Translations under genes and position numbers: made by a program
NCBI RefSeq assembly: GCF_000834655.1
Contig: NZ_JXQQ01000008.1
Coordinates: 248,001-312,000, forward strand
Direction: 5' to 3'
DNA length: 64,000 nucleotides
Origin: Variovorax paradoxus
Lineage (GTDB): Bacteria > Pseudomonadota > Gammaproteobacteria > Burkholderiales > Burkholderiaceae_C
Shown here: piece by piece, positions 32,498-41,098 of the stretch
Layout: each line of letters starts with the position of its first letter
Numbering within the stretch: the stretch's first letter is position 1
The notes under the pieces: generated by a model
Told to the model about the DNA's origin: nothing
The model's input: the letters and a program-made list of their open reading frames with translations, nothing else
Databases searched by the model: none

Positions 32498-33202
32498 TCA
32501 GTTGTCGATGCCGCCCTCGGGCATCTGCCGCGCGTAGACCGCGAGCACGATGCGCTCGGAGTGGATCAGGTAGTCGTTCAGCGAGGCCGAGCCTTCGGCG
32601 AACTTGCCCGCCTCGATGAGCTCCAGCAGCTTGGTGTTCATGTCCACGTAGGGCGCGTGCAGGAACTCCGGGTCCTTCAGCAGCCCGAAGGCCAGCCGCA
32701 GCTCGACCAGGATGTGCGCGAACAGCACGTTGAGCCGCTCGCTGTCCGCCAGCTCCACGATGCCCTTGTGGAACTCCATGTTCGCCGTGCCCACGCCCAG
32801 CCAGTCGCCCGCGTCGCGGCACTTCAGCGCGACTTCGACCGCCTCGCGCATGTGCTTCTTGGCCGGGTGGCGCGGGTAGGCCTGGGCCAGCGCCTGGCAC
32901 TCGATGAGCCGGCGCACCCGGTAGATGTCGATGATCGAGGCGATGCTCGGCACCGCCACGAACACGCCGCGGTTGGGCGCGTGCTTGAGCAGCCCCTCCT
33001 TGGTCAGCGTGCGGAACACCTCGCGCAGGGTGTTGCGCGAAATCTCGAAGCTGTCGGCCAGCGCGGCCTCCGACAGCCGCTGCCCTGGCGAGAACTCGCC
33101 CTTCACGATCTTCTGGCGGATGAGCTCGGCGACCCGGTCGTTGAGCGTCTGCGCGCCGGGCGAGGACGAGGCGGGGGAAGTCGGTGAAGCCAGGGAATTC
33201 AT
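32498..33202 (-). CDS. GntR-family (FadR/FCD) regulator, likely of the 5-oxoproline operon
   Basis: 234 aa from the ATG at 33202. A low-complexity Ser/Ala/Pro start leads to a GntR winged helix (LNDRVAELIRQKIVKGEF; LSEAALADSFEISRNTLREVF) and an all-helical FCD effector domain from ~100. FCD regulators usually bind carboxylic acids, so 5-oxoproline is a reasonable inducer. It is divergent from the oxoproline operon across 310 bp with a matching operator. Confidence 0.9.
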   Translation of the reverse strand: MNSLASPTSPASSSPGAQTLNDRVAELIRQKIVKGEFSPGQRLSEAALADSFEISRNTLREVFRTLTKEGLLKHAPNRGVFVAVPSIASIIDIYRVRRLIECQALAQAYPRHPAKKHMREAVEVALKCRDAGDWLGVGTANMEFHKGIVELADSERLNVLFAHILVELRLAFGLLKDPEFLHAPYVDMNTKLLELIEAGKFAEGSASLNDYLIHSERIVLAVYARQMPEGGIDN

Positions 33203-33512
33203 GCCGGAGGTGAGTGGAAGGACGAGCGAAAAAAGGCAGATGAGCGGGGAACCGCGAGTTTGCAGCAGTTTCGCGCCGTCCCTCCGCAGGTTTCGGGCCA
33301 CGTCGCGGATGCACCAAATGGGTCGGCCTCAGGGTTTTCATGGGGACTTTCGGGCACTGTTGTTGGGCACACTCACCATGATTGTTCAACAATTGCTAAT
33401 TAATGAGTGATGCAAGTGAAATCAATTGCTCATTCATTGGCACGAGGTTTGCGTCAAGCGAAGGCCGGCGCTCCCGCGCAAGGTGTCTCTGAATCCATAA
33501 CGAAAGACCAAC
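33203..33512. promoter_or_regulatory. 310-bp divergent control region
   Basis: No ORF worth calling. It is much more AT-rich near 33380-33450 than the flanking genes. It contains the palindrome at 33382-33394, the 8-bp direct repeats CAATTGCT at 33391-33398 and 33423-33430 (32 bp apart), and an AATGAG ... CTCATT inverted pair between them. I see no convincing -35/-10 pair. Confidence 0.55.
33382..33394. promoter_or_regulatory. Candidate FadR-type GntR operator
   Basis: ATTGTTCAACAAT is a perfect 13-bp palindrome. Its core TTGTTCAACAA fits the TNGTNNNACNA pattern described for FadR-subfamily GntR regulators. It lies between the FCD regulator gene and the oxoproline operon. Confidence 0.6.
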
Positions 33513-34256
33513 ATGACTCCTGACATCCCTCATCTGTGGCCCTTGATCGGCGTGGCCGTGATCATTGCGGGCTTCATCCTGCGCTTCAATCCGATGCTGG
33601 TGGTGATCGTCACGGCCATCGTGACGGCGGTCGCCGCGGGCTTCGGGCCGATGGCCATCCTCACGGCCATCGGCAGCGGGTTCGTCAAGACGCGCAACCT
33701 GCCGCTGATCATTCTTCTGCCGCTGGCCGTCATCGGCCTGCTCGAGCGCCACGGCCTGCGCCAGCACGCGCAGAACTGGATCAGCCGCATCAAGTCGGCC
33801 ACCGCCGGGCGCCTGCTGATCGTGTACCTGGCCGCGCGCGAGCTCACCGCCGCCGTCGGCCTCACCAGCCTGGGCGGCCACCCGCAGATGGTTCGCCCGC
33901 TGCTCGCGCCCATGGCCGAAGGCGCCACCGAAACCCGCTACGGCAAGCTGCCCGAGCGCATCCGCCACAAGTTGCGCGCCTACGCCGCGGCCACCGACAA
34001 CGTGGGCCTGTTCTTCGGCGAGGACATCTTCGTGGCATTCGGCGCCATCGTGCTGATGAGCACCTTCCTGCACGAGGCCGGCATCGACGTGGAGCCGCTG
34101 CACATCGCGCTGTGGGGCATTCCGACGGCCATTGCCGCGTTCATCATCCATTCGTGGCGCCTGCGCCGGCTCGACCAGTCGATCGCGCGCGAGATGGCGG
34201 GCGAGACGGCGCACGACGCTGTCGTTGCACCTGTTGCCACCCCGGAAGGCCGCTGA
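33513..34256 (+). CDS. DUF969 membrane protein, probable 5-oxoproline permease subunit
   Basis: 247 aa with about five to six membrane helices. LWPLIGVAVIIAGFILRFNPMLVVIVTA and VKTRNLPLIILLPLAVIGLLERHG are typical of DUF969. DUF969 and DUF979 occur together beside pcp and pxpABC in many bacteria and have been proposed as a two-part transporter; the activity is inferred from context only. It is the first gene of the operon and lies 2 nt from DUF979. Confidence 0.85.
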   Translation: MTPDIPHLWPLIGVAVIIAGFILRFNPMLVVIVTAIVTAVAAGFGPMAILTAIGSGFVKTRNLPLIILLPLAVIGLLERHGLRQHAQNWISRIKSATAGRLLIVYLAARELTAAVGLTSLGGHPQMVRPLLAPMAEGATETRYGKLPERIRHKLRAYAAATDNVGLFFGEDIFVAFGAIVLMSTFLHEAGIDVEPLHIALWGIPTAIAAFIIHSWRLRRLDQSIAREMAGETAHDAVVAPVATPEGR

Positions 34257-34258
34257 TC

Positions 34259-35215
34259 ATGATCCTCTCGATCCAGCACCTCTACATCCTGGTCGGCCTG
34301 ATCCTCGCGGTCACGGCCATCATGACGCTGACCGACAGGCAGCACCCCAAGCGCTACACCAGCGGCCTTTTCTGGGCGCTGTATTCGCTCGTGTTCCTCA
34401 TCGGCGACCAGCTGCCGCCGGCCTGGGTCGGCGTGGGCGCCATCGCCATGGCGGTCATTGCCGGCATGCGCGGCGTGGGCGCGGGCAAGCACCGCGAGCC
34501 GACCGCCGCCCAATACGAAACCAGCGCCAGGCGCCTGGGCAACAAGCTCTTCATGCCGGCACTGGCGATCCCGCTGGTCACCGTGATCGGCACCGTGCTC
34601 ATGAGCAAGGTGAAGATCGGCGACGCCTTCCTGCTGGACCCCAAGAACACCACGCTGGTGAGCCTGGGCGTGGGCTGCGTCATCGCATTGGCGCTGGCCT
34701 GCTGGCTGACGCGCGAGACGCCCATGCAGGGCCTGCGCGAGTCCAGGCGCCTGACCGACGCGCTGGGCTGGGCCGTGGTGCTGCCGCAGATGCTGGGCAT
34801 GCTGGGGCTGGTGTTCTCGGACGCGGGCGTGGGCAAGGCGGTGGCGTACATCACCACCAGCTACATCAACATGGACATCCGCTTCGTGGCGGTGGCCGTG
34901 TACGTGGTGGGCATGGCGCTTTTCACCATCATCATGGGCAACGGCTTCGCGGCCTTCCCGGTGATGACGGGCGGCGTGGGCGTGCCGGTGCTGGTGGGCG
35001 TGTACCACGGCGATCCGGCCGTGATGGCGGCCATCGGCATGTTCTCGGGCTACTGCGGCACGCTGATGACGCCGATGGCGGCCAACTTCAACATCGTGCC
35101 GGCGGCGCTGCTGGAGCTGCCCGACAAGAACGCGGTGATCAAGGTGCAGGTGCCGACCGCCGCCGCCTTGCTGGTGGTCAACATCTTCCTGCTGTACTTT
35201 TTGATGTTCCGCTGA
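34259..35215 (+). CDS. DUF979 membrane protein, probable 5-oxoproline permease subunit
   Basis: 318 aa, about nine membrane helices. [20 protein letters not shown] at the start and [22 protein letters not shown] near the end are DUF979 features. Partner of the DUF969 protein and followed after 10 nt by pcp. Likely takes up 5-oxoproline or pyroglutamyl peptides. Confidence 0.85.
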
Positions 35216-35225
35216 GGCACTGCGC

Positions 35226-35912
35226 ATGACCTCCGATGCCAAGGCACCCCGGGTGCTGCTCGCGGGCTTCGAGCCCTTCGAGAACGATCCCGTCAACCCC
35301 GCGTGGGAGATCGCGCGCGCGCTCGACGGCTGGACCTGCGAGGGCGCATCGGTGCATGCACTGCAGTTGCCCTGCGTGTTCGGCCGCGCCATCGACACGC
35401 TCGACGCGGCGCTGGCGGACATCCTCGGCGGGCAGGCGCCGCTGCCGCTGGTGCTGTGCGTGGGCGCCGCAGGCGGGCGCACCGAGATCTCGATGGAGCG
35501 CGCCGCGCTGAACGTGGACGACGCGCGCATTCCCGACAACGCGGGCCATCAGCCGATCGACGTGGAAGTGGTGGCCGGCGGCCCGGCCGCGTATTTCTCG
35601 AGCCTGCCCATCAAGGCCATGGTGCGCGACGTGCGCGCCGCGGGGCTGCCCGCGGCCGTGTCGAACAGCGCCGGCACCTTCGTATGCAACCACATCTTCT
35701 ATGCGCTGATGCATCGCCTGGCCACGCAGCCCGTGCTGGCACGCACGCGCGGCGGCTTCGTGCACGTGCCCTACCTGCCCGAGCAGGCGGCCTCCAGGCC
35801 GGGCGTCGCGAGCATGGCGCTGGCCGCGCAAGTGGAAGCCTTGCGCGTGGCGATCCGAACCGCGCTCACGGTGCGCGAAGACGTGCGCGAAACAGCCGGC
35901 CGCCTGCATTGA
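35226..35912 (+). CDS. pcp: Pyroglutamyl-peptidase I
   Basis: Cytosolic cysteine peptidase that removes N-terminal pyroglutamate from peptides, releasing 5-oxoproline for the enzymes downstream. 228 aa (family ~215). [15 protein letters not shown] (14-28) is the N-terminal signature. The triad is Glu91 (ISMERAALN), Cys154 ([12 protein letters not shown]) and His180 (GFVHVPYLP). Confidence 0.95.
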
Positions 35913-35964: not shown

Positions 35965-36744
35965 ATGAACATCGACTTGAACAGCGACTTGGGAGAGAGC
36001 CTGGGCGTGTGGCGCATGGGCGACGACGCGGCCATGCTGTCGCTGGTGAGCAGCGCCAACGTGGCCTGCGGCTTCCACGCGGGAGACCCGGCCGGCATCC
36101 TGCGCACGCTGCGCCAGGCGAAGGAGCGCGGCGTGGCGATCGGCGCGCACGTGTCCTACTGCGACCTCGTGGGGTTCGGGCGCCGCAACATGGACGTGGA
36201 AAGCGCCGACCTGCGCGCCGACGTGATCTACCAGATCGGCGCGCTGAAAGGCCTGGCCGCCGCGGTCGGCACCACGGTGCGCTACGTGAAACCCCACGGC
36301 GCGCTCTACAACACCATCGCCCACGACGAGCGCCAGGCGCGCGACGTGATCGCGGCCATCGGCGCGGTCGACTCCACGCTGTGCCTGGTCGCGCTGGCAG
36401 GCTCGCCACTGCTGGGCTGGGCGCGCGCCGAAGGCTTGCGCGCCGTGGCCGAGGCCTTCGCCGACCGCGCCTACACGCCCCAGGGCGCGCTGGTGTCGCG
36501 CCGCGAACCCGGCGCGGTGCTGCACGATGCCGAAGAGGTGGCCGAGCGCATGCTGCGCCTGGCCGCCGATGGCGTGCTCACGGCGATCGACGGCAGCACG
36601 GTGCGCATCGAGGCCGAATCGGTCTGCGTGCACGGCGACAGCCCGGGCGCGGTCGAGATGGCGCGCCAGGTGCGCGTGCGGCTCGAGCAGGCGGGCGTTT
36701 CGATCCGGCCCTTCGTGGACTCCCTTGTGGACGCCGCCGCATGA
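35965..36744 (+). CDS. pxpA: 5-oxoprolinase subunit A (LamB/YcsF family)
   Basis: Part of the ATP-dependent 5-oxoprolinase that opens 5-oxoproline to glutamate. 259 aa from the ATG at 35965 (family ~245-255). [11 protein letters not shown] (4-14), [13 protein letters not shown] and [12 protein letters not shown] are the LamB/YcsF signatures. It overlaps the pxpBC gene by 4 nt. Confidence 0.95.
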
Positions 36745-38348
36745 CGATGCGCTTTCTGCCGGTCAACCTGAACGCGCTGCTGGTCGAGCTCGACGACCTG
36801 CCGCAGACGCTGGCGCTGCTGGCCTCGCTGCGCGCCGAGCCCATCGCGGGCATCGAGGAGCTGGTGCCGGCGGCGCGCACGCTGCTGGTCACGTTCCGCC
36901 CGGCCGCCATCGGCGCGGACGAGCTCGTGCGCCGCATCGGGCAGCGCAGCCTGGGCGCACGCGAGGCGCGCGTCGACAAGCGCATCGAGATTGCGGTGCG
37001 CTACGACGGCGAAGACCTGGCCGAAGTGGCCGGGCTGCTGGGCATCGCACCCGAGGAAGTGGTGCGCCGCCACACGGGCAGCGACTACACGGTGGCCTTC
37101 ACCGGCTTTGCGCCCGGCTTCGCCTACCTCTCGGGCGGCGACGCGAGCCTGAACGTGCCGCGCCGCAAGGTGCCGCGCACGCGCATCCCGGCGGGCGCCG
37201 TGGGCCTGGCGGGCAGTTTCAGCGGCGTCTATCCGCAGGCCAGCCCGGGCGGCTGGCAGATCATCGGCATCACCGATGCGCCGATGTGGGACCTGTCGCG
37301 CGAGACGCCCGCGCTGCTGCAGCCGGGCGACACGGTGCGCTTCGTGGATGTCACGGCGCAGCCGCAGGCGGTGCCCGCACCCGCAGCCGTCGCGGTTGTC
37401 CAGCCCGTCGCCGCCAAGGCCGGCAGCGCCTTCGAGGTCCGCGCCGCCGGACTGCAGGCGCTGCTGCAGGACGGCGGCCGCCATGGCCAGGCGAAGCAGG
37501 GCGTGTCCGTCTCGGGCGCGATGGACCGGCGCTCGCTGCAGGCGGCCAACCGGCTGGTCGGCAACGCATCGGACATGGCCTGCCTCGAGATCGCCTACGG
37601 CGGCTTCCAATTCGCCTGCCGTGGCGATGCGGTGGTGGCGATCACCGGTGCCGATGCGCCCCTGACGCTCACCCGCGCCGATGGCACTTCATGGCCGCTG
37701 CCGCGCTACCAGGCGATCGCGCTGGGCGACGGCGACGTGCTCGCGCTCGGCGAACCGCAGGCCGGCATCCGCAGCTACCTGGCGGTGCGCGGCGGCTTCG
37801 ACATGGCGCCGGTGCTCGGCAGCCTTTCGACCGACACGCTCGCGCGCATCGGCCCGCCCGCCCTGGCCACGGGCGATGTGCTGCCCTTGCGCGCGGTTGC
37901 CACCGGCGCGCTGGTCGGCGCGCCCGAAACGCCGCCGGCCGACCTGCCCACGGTGCGCGAGGAAGTCGTGCTCGACATCGTGCTCGGCCCGCGCACCGAC
38001 TGGTTCACGCCCGACGCGCTCGCGCTGCTGTGCAGCCAGTCGTGGGCGGTCACGCCGCAGTCGAACCGCGTGGGCATCCGGCTCGCGGGCGAGGTGCCCC
38101 TGGCGCGCGCCATCCACGCCGAACTGCCGAGCGAAGGCACCGCGCATGGTGCGCTCCAGGTGCCGCCCAGCGGCCAGCCCGTGCTGTTCCTGGCCGACCA
38201 TCCGCTGACCGGCGGCTACCCCGTGGTCGCGTCCGTCGCCACCCATCACCTGGACCGCGCGGGGCAGATTCCCGTGAACGCGCGCGTGCGGTTCAACCCG
38301 ATCCCGGCGCCCGGGCCCGTCGCCCCAAGTGCCTCCAGCATCTCGTGA
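36741..38348 (+). CDS. 5-oxoprolinase subunits B and C fused (KipI-KipA type)
   Basis: 535 aa fusion. Residues 1-~215 are the PxpB/KipI (AHS1) domain with [11 protein letters not shown] and [16 protein letters not shown] Pro/Ala/Val linker (~212-230) joins the PxpC/KipA (AHS2) domain with [30 protein letters not shown] and RGGF. E. coli and Bacillus encode these as two proteins. With PxpA it should form the oxoprolinase. The AHS1-AHS2 pair also occurs in urea carboxylase, of interest because a biotin carboxylase follows after 10 nt. Confidence 0.93.
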
Positions 38349-38358
38349 AAGCCCTCCG

Positions 38359-40086
38359 ATGAAAAAACTCCTGATCGCCAACCGCGGCGAAATCGCCGTT
38401 CGCATCGCGCGCGCCTGCGCCGACCACGGTGTGCAGTCGGTCGCCGTCTACGCCGACGCCGACCTGAACGCGCTGCACGCGCGCATGGCCGACGAGGCCT
38501 ACGGGCTCGAAGGCGACAGGCCCGCCGACACCTACCTGAACATCGCCAAGCTGCTTGCCGTGGCCAAGCGCAGCGGAGCCGACGCGGTGCACCCGGGCTA
38601 TGGCTTCCTTTCCGAAAGCGCCGCGTTCGCGCAGGCCGTGATCGACGCCGGGCTTACCTGGGTCGGCCCCTCGCCCGCGGCCATCGCGATGCTGGGCGAC
38701 AAGGTGCAGGCACGCAAGCTCGCGCTGAAGGTGGGTGCGCCGCTGGTGGCGGGCACGGCCGATCCGGTGAAGAACGCGGGCGAGGTGCTCGCATTCGCCG
38801 AGGCGCACGGCCTGCCGGTCGCGATCAAGGCGGCCTTCGGCGGCGGCGGTCGCGGCATCAAGGTGGCGTGGCGGCTCGACGAGGTCGAGGGGCTGTACGA
38901 ATCGGCGGTGCGCGAGGCCGTCACGGCCTTCGGGCGCGGCGAGTGCTATGTGGAGCAGTTCCTCGACCGGCCGCGCCACGTCGAGGCCCAGGTGCTGGCC
39001 GACACGCACGGCAACGTGGTGGTGCTCGGCACGCGCGACTGCTCGCTGCAGCGTCGCAACCAGAAGCTGGTCGAAGAAGCGCCCGCACCCTTCCTCAGTG
39101 ACGAACAGCGCGCGCGCATCCACCAGTCGGCGCGCGACATCTGCGCCGAGGCCGGCTACACCGGCGCGGGCACGGTCGAATTCATGCTGAGCGCGAGCGG
39201 CGCCATCTCCTTCCTCGAGGTCAACACGCGCCTGCAGGTGGAGCACCCGGTGACCGAGGAAACCACGGGCATCGACCTGGTGATCGAGCAGTTGCGCATC
39301 GCCGAGGGGTTGCCGCTGTCGATCACGCAGACGCCGGTGCCGCGCGGCCATGCCTTCGAGTTCCGCATCAACGCCGAGGACGTGGGACGCGGCTTCCTGC
39401 CCGCGCCGGGGCCGGTGAAGGTGTTCGAGGCGCCCTCGGGCCCGGGCGTGCGCGTGGACACGGGCGTGGACGCGGGCTCGCAGGTGCCGGGCACCTTCGA
39501 TTCGCTGATGGCCAAGCTCATCGTCACCGGCGCCACGCGCGCGCAGGCCATCGCGCGCGCGCGCCGTGCGCTGAAGGAATTCCGCATCGAGGGCCTGCCC
39601 ACGGTGCTGCCATTCCACCGCGCCGTGATGACGCACCCGGACTTCGTCTCGGGCGATGCCTTCAAGGTGCACACGCGCTGGATCGAGACGGACTTTGCCA
39701 ACGGCGAGGCGCCCGCCATGCGGCCAGACCCGGCGCCCGACACCGCGCTGCTGCGCACCGCGATCGAAGTGGACGGCAAGCGCATGGCGCTGGGCCTGCC
39801 TGCGGTGCTGCTGGGTGGGTTGTCGGCTGCCGCAGGAACGCCGGGCATCGCGGCGGCCGAAGCGCCTGCGGCCGATGCCGCGGCGGTTGCCGCGCCCGTG
39901 TCGGGCACGCTGCAGGGCTGGAAGGTGGCCGACGGCGACGAGGTGGCGCAGGGCGCCGTCGTCGCCGTGATGGAGGCCATGAAGATGGAGATGCAGGTCG
40001 TCGCGCACCGCGCGGGGCGCATCGCCTTCTCGGTGGCGACGGGCGGCTATGTGGCGGCGGGCGCCACGCTCGCGACCATCGGCTGA
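38359..40086 (+). CDS. Biotin carboxylase fused to biotin carrier domain
   Basis: 575 aa. Residues 1-~450 form a complete biotin carboxylase: [29 protein letters not shown]-grasp [22 protein letters not shown]. After an Ala-rich linker the end is a biotinyl domain with EAMKMEM, biotinyl-Lys542. No carboxyltransferase of the usual acyl-CoA kind adjoins it; the only possible partner is the AHS1-AHS2 protein upstream. So its role may be in oxoproline or a urea-like amide rather than fatty acid synthesis. The ATG at 38359 fits the family start; one 30 nt upstream overlaps pxpBC. Confidence 0.9.
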
Positions 40087-40090
40087 TGCC

Positions 40091-41098
40091 ATGGAGCACC
40101 TCGCCCTGACGCGTCGGTCCTTCCACATGCTGGCGTGCGGTGCGGGGAGTTTGTGCGCGCTGCCGCCCGCCTGGGCCGCGCCCGGCGCCGTCGTGTGGCG
40201 GCTGGCCACCGGCTATCCGGCGGAGAACTTCCACACCGTCAACCTCGTGGCGATGGCGCGCGAGGTCGAGCAGGCCACCCAGGGGCAGCTGCGCGTCGAG
40301 GTCCATCCGAAAAACACGCTGTTCGCGATGAACGCCATCCGCGCGGCGGTGCAGGACGGCAAGGCCGAGGCCGGCGAAGCCATCATGAGCAGCCTGGTCG
40401 CCGAGGTGCCGCTCGCGGGCGCCGACTCGGTGCCGTTCATCACGCACGGCTACGCCGACGCGATGCGGCTGTGGCGCATCCAGCGCCCGCTGATCGAGCG
40501 CGAGTTCACGCAGCGCGGCCTGCGCGTGCTCTATGCCGTGGCCTGGCCGCCGCAGGGCCTGTACGCGAACCGCCCGCTGGCCGGCATGGGCGATGTGCGC
40601 GGCCTGCGCATGCGCGCCTACAACGCCACCACTGCGCGCATCGCCACGCTGATGGGTGCGGTGCCGGTCGACGTGCCGGCCGCCGAACTCGACAAGGCGC
40701 TGGCCGACGGCCGCATCGACTGCATGCTGACCTCGGCCGTTACGGGGGTGGAAAGCCGGGTGTGGCAGTCGATGCGCTTCTTCTACGACATCGACGCCTG
40801 GTTTCCGAAGAACCTGGTGTTCGCCAACGGCAAGGCCTGGGACGCGCTGGCCGCGCCCTCGCGCGACGCGCTGCAGACCGCCTGCGCGGCCGCCGAGCGG
40901 CGCGGCTGGGCGGACAGCGCCGCCGCCGCGGCCCGCTCGATGGACGAACTGCGCCGCAACGGGGTGAAGACCGAGCCGGTGTCCTATCTGTTCAACCGCG
41001 ACCTGCGGCGCCTGGGCGAGCACTTTTCGCTGGACTGGGTCAGGCAGGTGGGGGTGGGGGCGAACGACATCTTCATTCCGTATTTCGACGGGCGCTGA
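40091..41098 (+). CDS. TRAP-transporter-type (DctP) substrate-binding protein
   Basis: 335 aa, exported. LTRRSFHMLACGAG at the N-terminus is a Tat-like signal cut near PAWAAP. The mature part has VWRLATGYPAENFHT, DVRGLRMRAYN and RIDCMLTSAVTG, the DctP fold pattern. No DctQ/DctM membrane subunits are nearby. It starts 4 nt after the carboxylase gene and looks like the last gene of the oxoproline operon, so it may deliver 5-oxoproline or a related acid. Confidence 0.85.
   Translation: MEHLALTRRSFHMLACGAGSLCALPPAWAAPGAVVWRLATGYPAENFHTVNLVAMAREVEQATQGQLRVEVHPKNTLFAMNAIRAAVQDGKAEAGEAIMSSLVAEVPLAGADSVPFITHGYADAMRLWRIQRPLIEREFTQRGLRVLYAVAWPPQGLYANRPLAGMGDVRGLRMRAYNATTARIATLMGAVPVDVPAAELDKALADGRIDCMLTSAVTGVESRVWQSMRFFYDIDAWFPKNLVFANGKAWDALAAPSRDALQTACAAAERRGWADSAAAAARSMDELRRNGVKTEPVSYLFNRDLRRLGEHFSLDWVRQVGVGANDIFIPYFDGR

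Follow-up and report, generated by a model that had tools for sequence, protein, structure and literature searches.

The described systems closest to the locus reported here are the 5-oxoprolinase PxpABC, in which ATP is spent by PxpBC, urea carboxylase, whose carboxyltransferase uses Lys1605 as general base (PMC5770610), and a mycobacterial acyl-CoA carboxylase complex to which the PxpB and PxpC relatives MSMEG_0435 and MSMEG_0436 bind. Growth of C. glutamicum on 5-oxoproline requires pxpTABC (PMC13274462), MSMEG_0435-0436 are raised approximately two-fold under nitrogen limitation (PMC4617892), the function of PA0493/PA0494 is called unknown (PMC6249292), paired UCT-like genes are noted as unstudied (PMC3199775) and, in L. 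pentosus, an extra biotin carboxyl carrier protein (BCCP) with biotin carboxylase (BC) and, separately, pxpB/pxpC are each singled out as special without being linked (PMC12427679). A search of openly accessible, non-preprint literature found, in the text available, no published tie between biotin carboxylase and Pxp function. Here we describe, in a 64,000-nucleotide stretch of Variovorax paradoxus DNA (positions 248,001 to 312,000 of contig NZ_JXQQ01000008.1; the whole stretch is called the window), a locus in which PxpA and a fused PxpB-PxpC protein (PxpBC) are encoded beside a fused BC-BCCP. In our view it probably specifies a biotin-dependent carboxylase of 5-oxoproline, split over two chains and working together with the hydrolase PxpA. 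The compound 5-oxoproline is glutamate in a cyclic, dead-end form, which clusters of this sort recycle.

Three genes form the centre of the locus:

35965-36744, + strand: PxpA (LamB/YcsF), the proposed ring-opening hydrolase (PF03746, 334 bits; NF003814, 379.8 against a cut-off of 226; start inferred)
36741-38348, + strand: PxpB-PxpC fusion, the proposed carboxyltransferase (535 aa; identified by Pfam, NCBIfam and fold)
38359-40086, + strand: BC-BCCP fusion, biotin carboxylase plus biotin carrier (575 aa; identified by Pfam, PDB match and motif)

The end of the PxpA gene overlaps the start of that for PxpBC by 4 bases, and 10 bases separate the latter from the BC-BCCP gene. Together they complete an operon which reads, on the plus strand, DUF969, DUF979, Pcp, PxpA, PxpB-PxpC fusion and BC-BCCP fusion, with a GntR/FCD gene diverging from it. 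The genome measures 6.9 Mb, and C117 is the contig with the locus; the closest named relatives are Variovorax, with PxpBC identities of no more than 92%. Pfam places CT_C_D (AHS1/PxpB) at residues 3-193 of PxpBC (210 bits; approximately 36747-37319) and CT_A_B (AHS2/PxpC) at residues 254-520 (291 bits; approximately 37500-38300), and in BC-BCCP finds Biotin_carb_N, CPSase_L_D2, Biotin_carb_C and, at residues 511-574, Biotin_lipoyl. These matches agree with a preliminary description of the DNA, which had recognised the four domains of urea carboxylase split over two adjacent genes within a 5-oxoproline operon. The carrier domain (approximately 39889-40080) contains the biotin-attachment motif MEAMKMEMQ, its lysine at about residue 542, and the blocks common to aligned biotin carboxylases (that of the window, the genome's AccC-like protein, one urea carboxylase and three others) are kept; judged from these blocks and the motif, the BC domain is predicted to be active and the BCCP to be biotinylatable. 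PxpA, PxpB and PxpC domains are encoded together, all above cut-off (PF03746, PF02682 and PF02626). PxpA passes its subfamily model NF003814, and PxpBC falls under the NCBIfam equivalog cut-offs, scoring 182.6 of 500 for NF045499 and, in a near miss, 141.9 of 145.55 for TIGR00370.

BC-BCCP and PxpBC are functionally linked in the clade to which the window locus belongs. Relatives were found by scanning a collection of species genomes with six exact PxpBC peptide patterns, so that the 68 loci obtained are a sample of close kin rather than a census. A BC gene lies beside that of PxpBC in all 65 close relatives (L015-L079), which span Alpha-, Beta- and Gammaproteobacteria and come from Comamonadaceae, Cupriavidus, a Rhodocyclaceae bacterium, Photorhabdus, Xenorhabdus, Pseudomonas, Aureimonas, Rhizobium and other Proteobacteria. 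A BCCP is present at 63 of them, both misses (L034 and L070) stopping at contig ends, and PxpA at 59: L044 and L077 start inside PxpB, and L036, L037, L039 and L043 are without a full PxpA. Also encoded at the 65 loci are GntR (54), DUF969 (27), DUF979 (27), Pcp (25) and DUF1445 (21). As a rule BC is better conserved among the relatives than PxpB or PxpC. The remaining three of the 68 (L080-L082; best-segment identities of 41, 38 and 34%) have no BC. Given six BC genes in 6.9 Mb, a random gene would by our estimate have one within 10 kb in about 2% of cases, and chance neighbourhood is ruled out by the unbroken linkage in the close relatives: the frequency of co-occurrence in the clade, which the preliminary description had left to be checked, is far above chance.

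The four loci without a full PxpA are from Cupriavidus, and in all four genomes PxpA is present elsewhere; in that of L036 a 29-residue PxpA match lies beside DUF1445 and PxpB. It looks as though the local PxpA has been lost. A DUF1445 gene stands just upstream of that for PxpBC in L029, L036, L038, L059, L101 and others; the DUF1445 family is related to D-glutamate cyclase, an enzyme that would yield 5-oxo-D-proline.

Elsewhere in the genome, the only other match to CT_A_B (PF02626) is on contig C42, where Pcp, PxpA, PxpC and PxpB are separate genes of an ordinary pxpABC set; none of the six BC matches of the genome falls on C42. No urea carboxylase was found in the genome, where it would have given a third CT_A_B match. 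The absence of an acyl-CoA carboxyltransferase from the locus, also noted in the preliminary description, is borne out, all six PF01039 matches being on other contigs. Four of the six BC genes (on C106, C123, C79 and C128) share their stretch with a PF01039 gene. A fifth lies on C48; its frame of 477 residues has the size of an AccC, and its partners may be the partial, accA/accD-like matches found on C45 and C75. This leaves the window BC as the sole copy to which no PF01039 partner can be assigned. PYC_OADA has zero matches in the genome, and the only carboxyltransferase candidate at hand for BC-BCCP is the CT_A_B/CT_C_D pair. The genome also has one Hydantoinase_B (HyuB/OplB-type) gene (G000:C78:7135-8715), possibly encoding a further lactamase.

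Judged from aligned sequences, the window PxpBC departs from residues conserved in its canonical counterparts and at those positions resembles urea carboxylase. In window numbering, used throughout, it reads R141, F160, L367, P488 and V495, whereas canonical rows have Q160 (58 of 61), Q488 (55 of 62), R/K367 (49 of 62) and K/R495 (51 of 62). The rows compared with these were 18 of the window clade (group I of the trees below), 7 of group II, 12 urea carboxylases and 9 actinobacterial relatives of group I, eight of the last without an adjacent BC. Position 160 is F or Y in 45 of these 46, the exception being Q in L187, and every one of the 46 has L/I/M at 367, P/V at 488 and a non-basic residue at 495. 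Basic residues common to most ordinary PxpC are gone in the window clade; the second Pxp set of the genome reads Q160, K367 and R495. PxpA columns in which 90% or more of the canonical rows agree were compared with 17 rows of the window clade. The clade differs at M46 (I), P64 (V), E83 (frequently D) and A185 (S in 4 rows), and since nearly all conserved residues are kept the step of ring hydrolysis looks unchanged.

Loci with a linked BC are spread over four or more places in the PxpC tree which, like the BC tree, is a quick tree. Group I is the window clade (support 99); group II (L084, L086 and five loci from actinobacteria) branches as the sister of urea carboxylase (98); group III is L083 with L098 and, apart from them, L093; and group IV is L178, L181 and L183. 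In groups III and IV position 160 is Q, and 367 and 495 are both basic. The BC tree puts the window BC, together with L187, in a clade apart (100), groups II and IV form separate clades, and the BCs of group III cluster with the AccC-like BC of the genome (100). From this scatter it follows that BC and Pxp came together repeatedly, or else that BC was lost on many occasions. That the window BC might be a housekeeping AccC/AccB component is ruled out by its own clade, apart from the AccC-like BC. The housekeeping reading does fit L083, L093 and L098, whose BCs group with the AccC-like BC and whose PxpBC is canonical.

A random survey with CT_A_B as target covered 120 Pseudomonadota (34 with a match), 149 Bacillota, the phylum of Tepidibacillus G125 (50), and 100 Actinomycetota, the phylum of Corynebacterium G124 (26); 100 regions were taken and read with hidden Markov models built from the loci. 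The resulting counts concern loci with a readable PxpB, apart from urea carboxylases and ten chosen close relatives. One partial match (G004) was dropped from the Pseudomonadota, where 10 of 14 urea-carboxylase-length frames were used. The 31 actinobacterial matches divide into 20 in the survey, 6 in the hold-out set described below, one that is L080 and, omitted, two pieces of G315 and two urea-carboxylase frames; the 54 from Bacillota divide into 40 in the survey, 10 in the hold-out, one that is L081, the omitted G144 and G217, and a second piece of G129 that was not treated separately. A BC was nearby in 12 of 32 Pseudomonadota loci (which include the window and the second set of its genome), in 0 of 40 from Bacillota and in 9 of 19 from Actinomycetota. 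Within the Pseudomonadota, BC is found at 9 of 9 loci with an aromatic residue at 160 (the window included) against 3 of 23 others (Fisher p 8e-6, uncorrected for kinship), these three carrying an AccC-type BC. In G046, G038 and G082 the biotin-type set is the sole CT_A_B match, other kinds of 5-oxoprolinase not having been searched for there.

Actinobacterial genomes may have the window-type PxpBC and no adjacent BC, and in 8 of 12 such genomes examined a window-type BC-BCCP, 58-64% identical, is encoded elsewhere (58-62% in G371, G313, G298, G124 and G325 of the first set; 61-64% in G349, G337 and G360 of the hold-out). G283 has both a dedicated BC-BCCP copy (65%) and another (61%). The best PDB match of the window BC-BCCP is AccA3, with 728 bits over residues 2-574 (5mlk_A, 719; next chain, 451), and its identity of 58-65% to one actinobacterial group, against no more than 53% to the other matches listed, marks it as an AccA3-type alpha subunit. 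PxpBC, for its part, has sequence matches in the PDB to TTHA0988, Msmeg0435-0436, YbgJK and urea carboxylase. Comparison of its AlphaFold model (pLDDT 86.4) by VIA-align gave Z scores of 39 for TTHA0988, 38 for Msmeg0435, 34.5 for YbgJK and 33 for K. lactis urea amidolyase, in a match list dominated by the PxpC domain. AccA3 and both MSMEG_0435 and MSMEG_0436 are contained in PDB entry 9YX5, released 2025-11-26 under the title 'Structure of the long chain acyl-CoA carboxylase complex from Mycobacterium smegmatis with MSMEG_0435-MSMEG_0436 bound'. In the alignments the two MSMEG subunits show R141, F160, M367, H487, P488 and V495, which is the window pattern except for M in place of L at 367; YbgJ, TTHA0988, PH0987 and KipI have Q at 160.

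In the mechanism that we propose, BC would carboxylate the carrier biotin using ATP and bicarbonate. The carrier would swing to the PxpB-PxpC pair which, as a carboxyltransferase of the urea carboxylase type, would hand CO2 to the lactam of 5-oxoproline, most likely to its nitrogen. PxpA would then hydrolyse the weakened ring, and the carbamate would break down to glutamate and CO2. On balance CO2 would be catalytic and ATP would be spent in BC instead of PxpBC. The simplest account of the locus would be that activation has moved from PxpBC to BC-BCCP, carboxybiotin replacing direct use of ATP, for which urea carboxylase is a chemical precedent. The preliminary description had envisaged carboxylation in addition to or in place of PxpABC hydrolysis; for the activation step, replacement is the better fit of the two, because PxpBC has lost the ordinary conserved residues while PxpA stays nearly ordinary. 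BC-BCCP and PxpBC are probably one enzyme in the window clade, and formation of a complex is likely; for the window itself we infer joint action of this kind, a carboxylated intermediate, nitrogen as acceptor and 5-oxo-L-proline as substrate. Pcp, which frees 5-oxoproline from peptides, stands beside both Pxp sets of the genome and therefore points to 5-oxoproline. Bicarbonate is active in lactam opening by an unrelated caprolactamase (PMC8453981).

A wider proposal is put forward more tentatively: there may be two 5-oxoprolinase mechanisms built on PxpA, PxpB and PxpC parts, one in which PxpBC spends ATP and one in which it acts as the carboxyltransferase in a so far unrecognised class of biotin-dependent carboxylases, whose reaction would be the N-carboxylation of 5-oxoproline. 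Mycobacterial PxpBC, borrowing AccA3, would then be of the biotin type, as would the window set, which has its own copy and exists beside an ordinary set. L178, L181 and L183, where BC and BCCP adjoin a PxpBC of canonical pattern, lie outside this two-type scheme.

Several observations weigh against the proposed carboxylase. The catalytic Lys1605 of urea carboxylase, located by manual counting along the alignment, corresponds to Arg141 in 18 of 18 window-clade rows, as in ordinary PxpB, and to Lys in 12 of 12 urea carboxylases; the transfer therefore cannot follow that of urea carboxylase in every respect. The rows that were counted are also those from which the residue pattern was chosen. In Actinomycetota the adjacency rule fails, BC being nearby at 5 of 15 aromatic-160 and 4 of 4 Q160 loci, and Q160 occurs despite a nearby BC in actinobacterial L178, L181, L183 and L187 and in L083, L093 and L098 of the Pseudomonadota. 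A phylogeny-corrected test of independent pairs found 7 pairs, most of them without difference, and decides nothing; in a tree built without the pattern columns the grouping needs two changes, and a single origin is not rejected (approximately unbiased (AU) test, p 0.235), L109, L112, L151 and L161 having been omitted from both trees. Four of the 12 actinobacterial genomes (G284, G326, G306 and G344) offer, as their closest BC, one of no more than 48-51% identity. The contents of 9YX5 are known here from its title and chain sequences alone. Finally, according to PMC11033972, a dependency on bicarbonate has not been reported for one bacterial 5-oxoprolinase.

The hold-out belongs with these observations. 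It comprised 30 loci unused before, 14 of them from a further scan of 34 rows, from which 15 urea-carboxylase-length frames, two rows of the window genome, the already encountered G007 and a split G420 match were omitted. None of its 17 loci with Q160 has a BC. An adjacent BC was likewise found at 0 of its 9 aromatic-160 loci (six actinobacterial, L242-L247, and three from Pseudomonadota including the urea-carboxylase-type L241), so that the positive half of the survey result, an adjacent BC where 160 is aromatic, was not repeated. The genomes of L243, L244 and L245 encode a 61-64% identical BC-BCCP elsewhere, while the best in G344 (L247) is 48%; L242 and L246 keep K495, their genomes being G327 (best BC 50%) and G339 (no match). 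For L229 and L239, which are exceptions, the best BC in the genome is only 45-47% identical. Of the others, L230 has adjacent BC and BCCP, A160 and the urea carboxylase lysine, L231 has R160 and no BC, and L240 and L250 have no readable PxpB. The gap between residue pattern and adjacent BC is only partly explained by BC in trans. As proof, the residue pattern is undone by the AU result, the 7-pair test and the hold-out.

A carboxylase composed of BC-BCCP and PxpBC might instead act on 5-oxo-D-proline, hydantoin, a substituted pyroglutamate or some other lactam or amide, leaving 5-oxo-L-proline to the second pxpABC. The genome does already have that canonical set with its own Pcp, and DUF1445, presumably the D-glutamate cyclase relative mentioned above, is found at 21 of the 65 related loci. 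However, Pcp occurs in the window and at 25 of the 65, PxpA retains nearly all canonical residues, and the biotin-type set is the sole CT_A_B match in the three survey genomes, within the limits of that search; we regard a different substrate as unlikely. It seems still less likely that PxpABC acts alone by the ordinary ATP route, with BC-BCCP serving another carboxylase (for example acyl-CoA carboxyltransferases in trans) or coupling nitrogen recycling to fatty-acid synthesis. The title of 9YX5 does name an acyl-CoA carboxylase complex, in which PxpBC could be a regulator or passenger, one mycobacterial BC-BCCP subunit, AccA3, serves several carboxyltransferases (PMC11001197), and there are loci with the residue pattern but no nearby BC. 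Such a division of labour sits poorly with a BC beside PxpBC in every close relative, with the other BCs of the genome being pairable with their own carboxyltransferases, and with a PxpBC changed at residues that are conserved in ordinary PxpBC. That the locus is a split urea or guanidine carboxylase proper, placed beside 5-oxoproline genes by accident, we hold to be very improbable: all four domains of urea carboxylase are present, but PxpBC lies outside the urea carboxylase clade and adjacent to PxpA, Arg replaces Lys1605, and TIGR02712 scores of 173.3 (PxpBC) and 490.6 (BC-BCCP) compare with a cut-off of 1303.85. Urea carboxylase proper was rejected on these scores and on the Arg in place of the catalytic Lys.

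The preliminary description's term 'split urea-carboxylase-like' suits the set of domains and several of the residues in PxpBC. It does not extend to nearest kinship, since it is group II that is sister to urea carboxylase and keeps the lysine, the window having Arg. A paper from the Meister laboratory is said to have described bicarbonate-dependent ATP cleavage by 5-oxoprolinase; the reference at the corresponding place has a different title, and the point is not used here. Component A of the P. putida 5-oxoprolinase (64 + 51 kDa, as quoted in PMC8453981) was attractive by size as BC-BCCP plus PxpBC. This identification was dropped because PMC6061476 gives 75 + 63 kDa and because, according to PMC11033972, a dependency on bicarbonate has not been reported.

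In group II the urea carboxylase lysine is kept in 7 of 7 members and R180 of PxpA is replaced by T, also in 7 of 7; the group may therefore act on something else. Its members L084, L086, L179, L182, L184, L185 and L190 have the BCCP motif VMKS/VMKT instead of AMKM, and such carriers would escape a motif search like the EAMKME of PMC9894557. At L185 a BCCP was seen and no BC in the stretch read. L241 (genome G487), L180 and L188 have a transferase of urea carboxylase type, 668-793 residues long, with PxpC-PxpB order and the catalytic lysine, and no BC in the stretch; the single BC match of G487 is of AccC size. This type is possibly a urea carboxylase that borrows a housekeeping BC.

The genes flanking the central three in the window are as follows:

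32498-33301, - strand: GntR/FCD regulator, divergent (PF00392, PF07729)
33513-34256, + strand: DUF969 membrane protein, possible transporter part (PF06149, 299 bits)
approximately 34250-35215 (start uncertain), + strand: DUF979 membrane protein, possible transporter part (PF06166, 412 bits)
35226-35912, + strand: Pcp, pyroglutamyl-peptidase I (PF01470, 244.5 bits; NCBIfam above cut-off)
40091-41098 (frame open from 40049, start inferred), + strand: DctP solute-binding protein (PF03480, 83.7 bits)

The DUF969/DUF979 pair (33513-35215) is also seen beside ordinary pxp sets (L127-L130 and L156); as it accompanies both these and biotin-type sets, it may be a 5-oxoproline transporter. The DctP gene immediately follows that of BC-BCCP in 5 of the 65 related loci, all of them Variovorax, and is probably outside the core gene set.

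Annotation will probably label such genes as a spare acetyl-CoA carboxylase subunit beside a 5-oxoprolinase (compare PMC12427679), which masks a likely single enzyme. Should the proposed carboxylase be real, an amide or lactam substrate would be added to those of biotin-dependent carboxylases and a possible forerunner of urea carboxylase would come into view. There would also be a residue test that may tell two Pxp types apart, and a hint at the role of MSMEG_0435-0436 in the mycobacterial acyl-CoA carboxylase complex.

Compared with PxpABC as represented by E. coli YbgJK, Thermus TTHA0988 and B. subtilis KipI, the window set is alike in protein families, fold, 5-oxoproline context and PxpA residues; it differs in its dedicated BC-BCCP and in a PxpBC that lacks Q160, R/K367, Q488 and K/R495 and scores below the equivalog cut-offs. 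With urea carboxylase (K. lactis UC/UA, PDB codes 3VA7 and 5I8I; TIGR02712) it has in common BC, BCCP, CT_A_B and CT_C_D domains together with an aromatic residue at 160, a hydrophobic one at 367 and a non-basic one at 495. Urea carboxylase is a single chain, however, whereas the window has two, CT_C_D-CT_A_B and then BC-BCCP, with Arg for Lys1605 and PxpA instead of allophanate hydrolase as hydrolase partner. AccA3 and MSMEG_0435-0436 of M. smegmatis, as found in 9YX5, resemble the window proteins in the type of BC-BCCP and in a nearly identical PxpB/PxpC pattern; there, AccA3 is shared with acyl-CoA carboxyltransferases and PxpB and PxpC are separate chains, while the window copy is dedicated. 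Clustering of PxpA, BCCP, BC, PxpB and PxpC is common to the window and to the type of Pseudomonas aeruginosa PA0492-PA0496, for which L084 and L086 stand here. Unlike the window locus, that type has BC and BCCP as separate proteins, keeps the urea carboxylase lysine and is sister to urea carboxylase.

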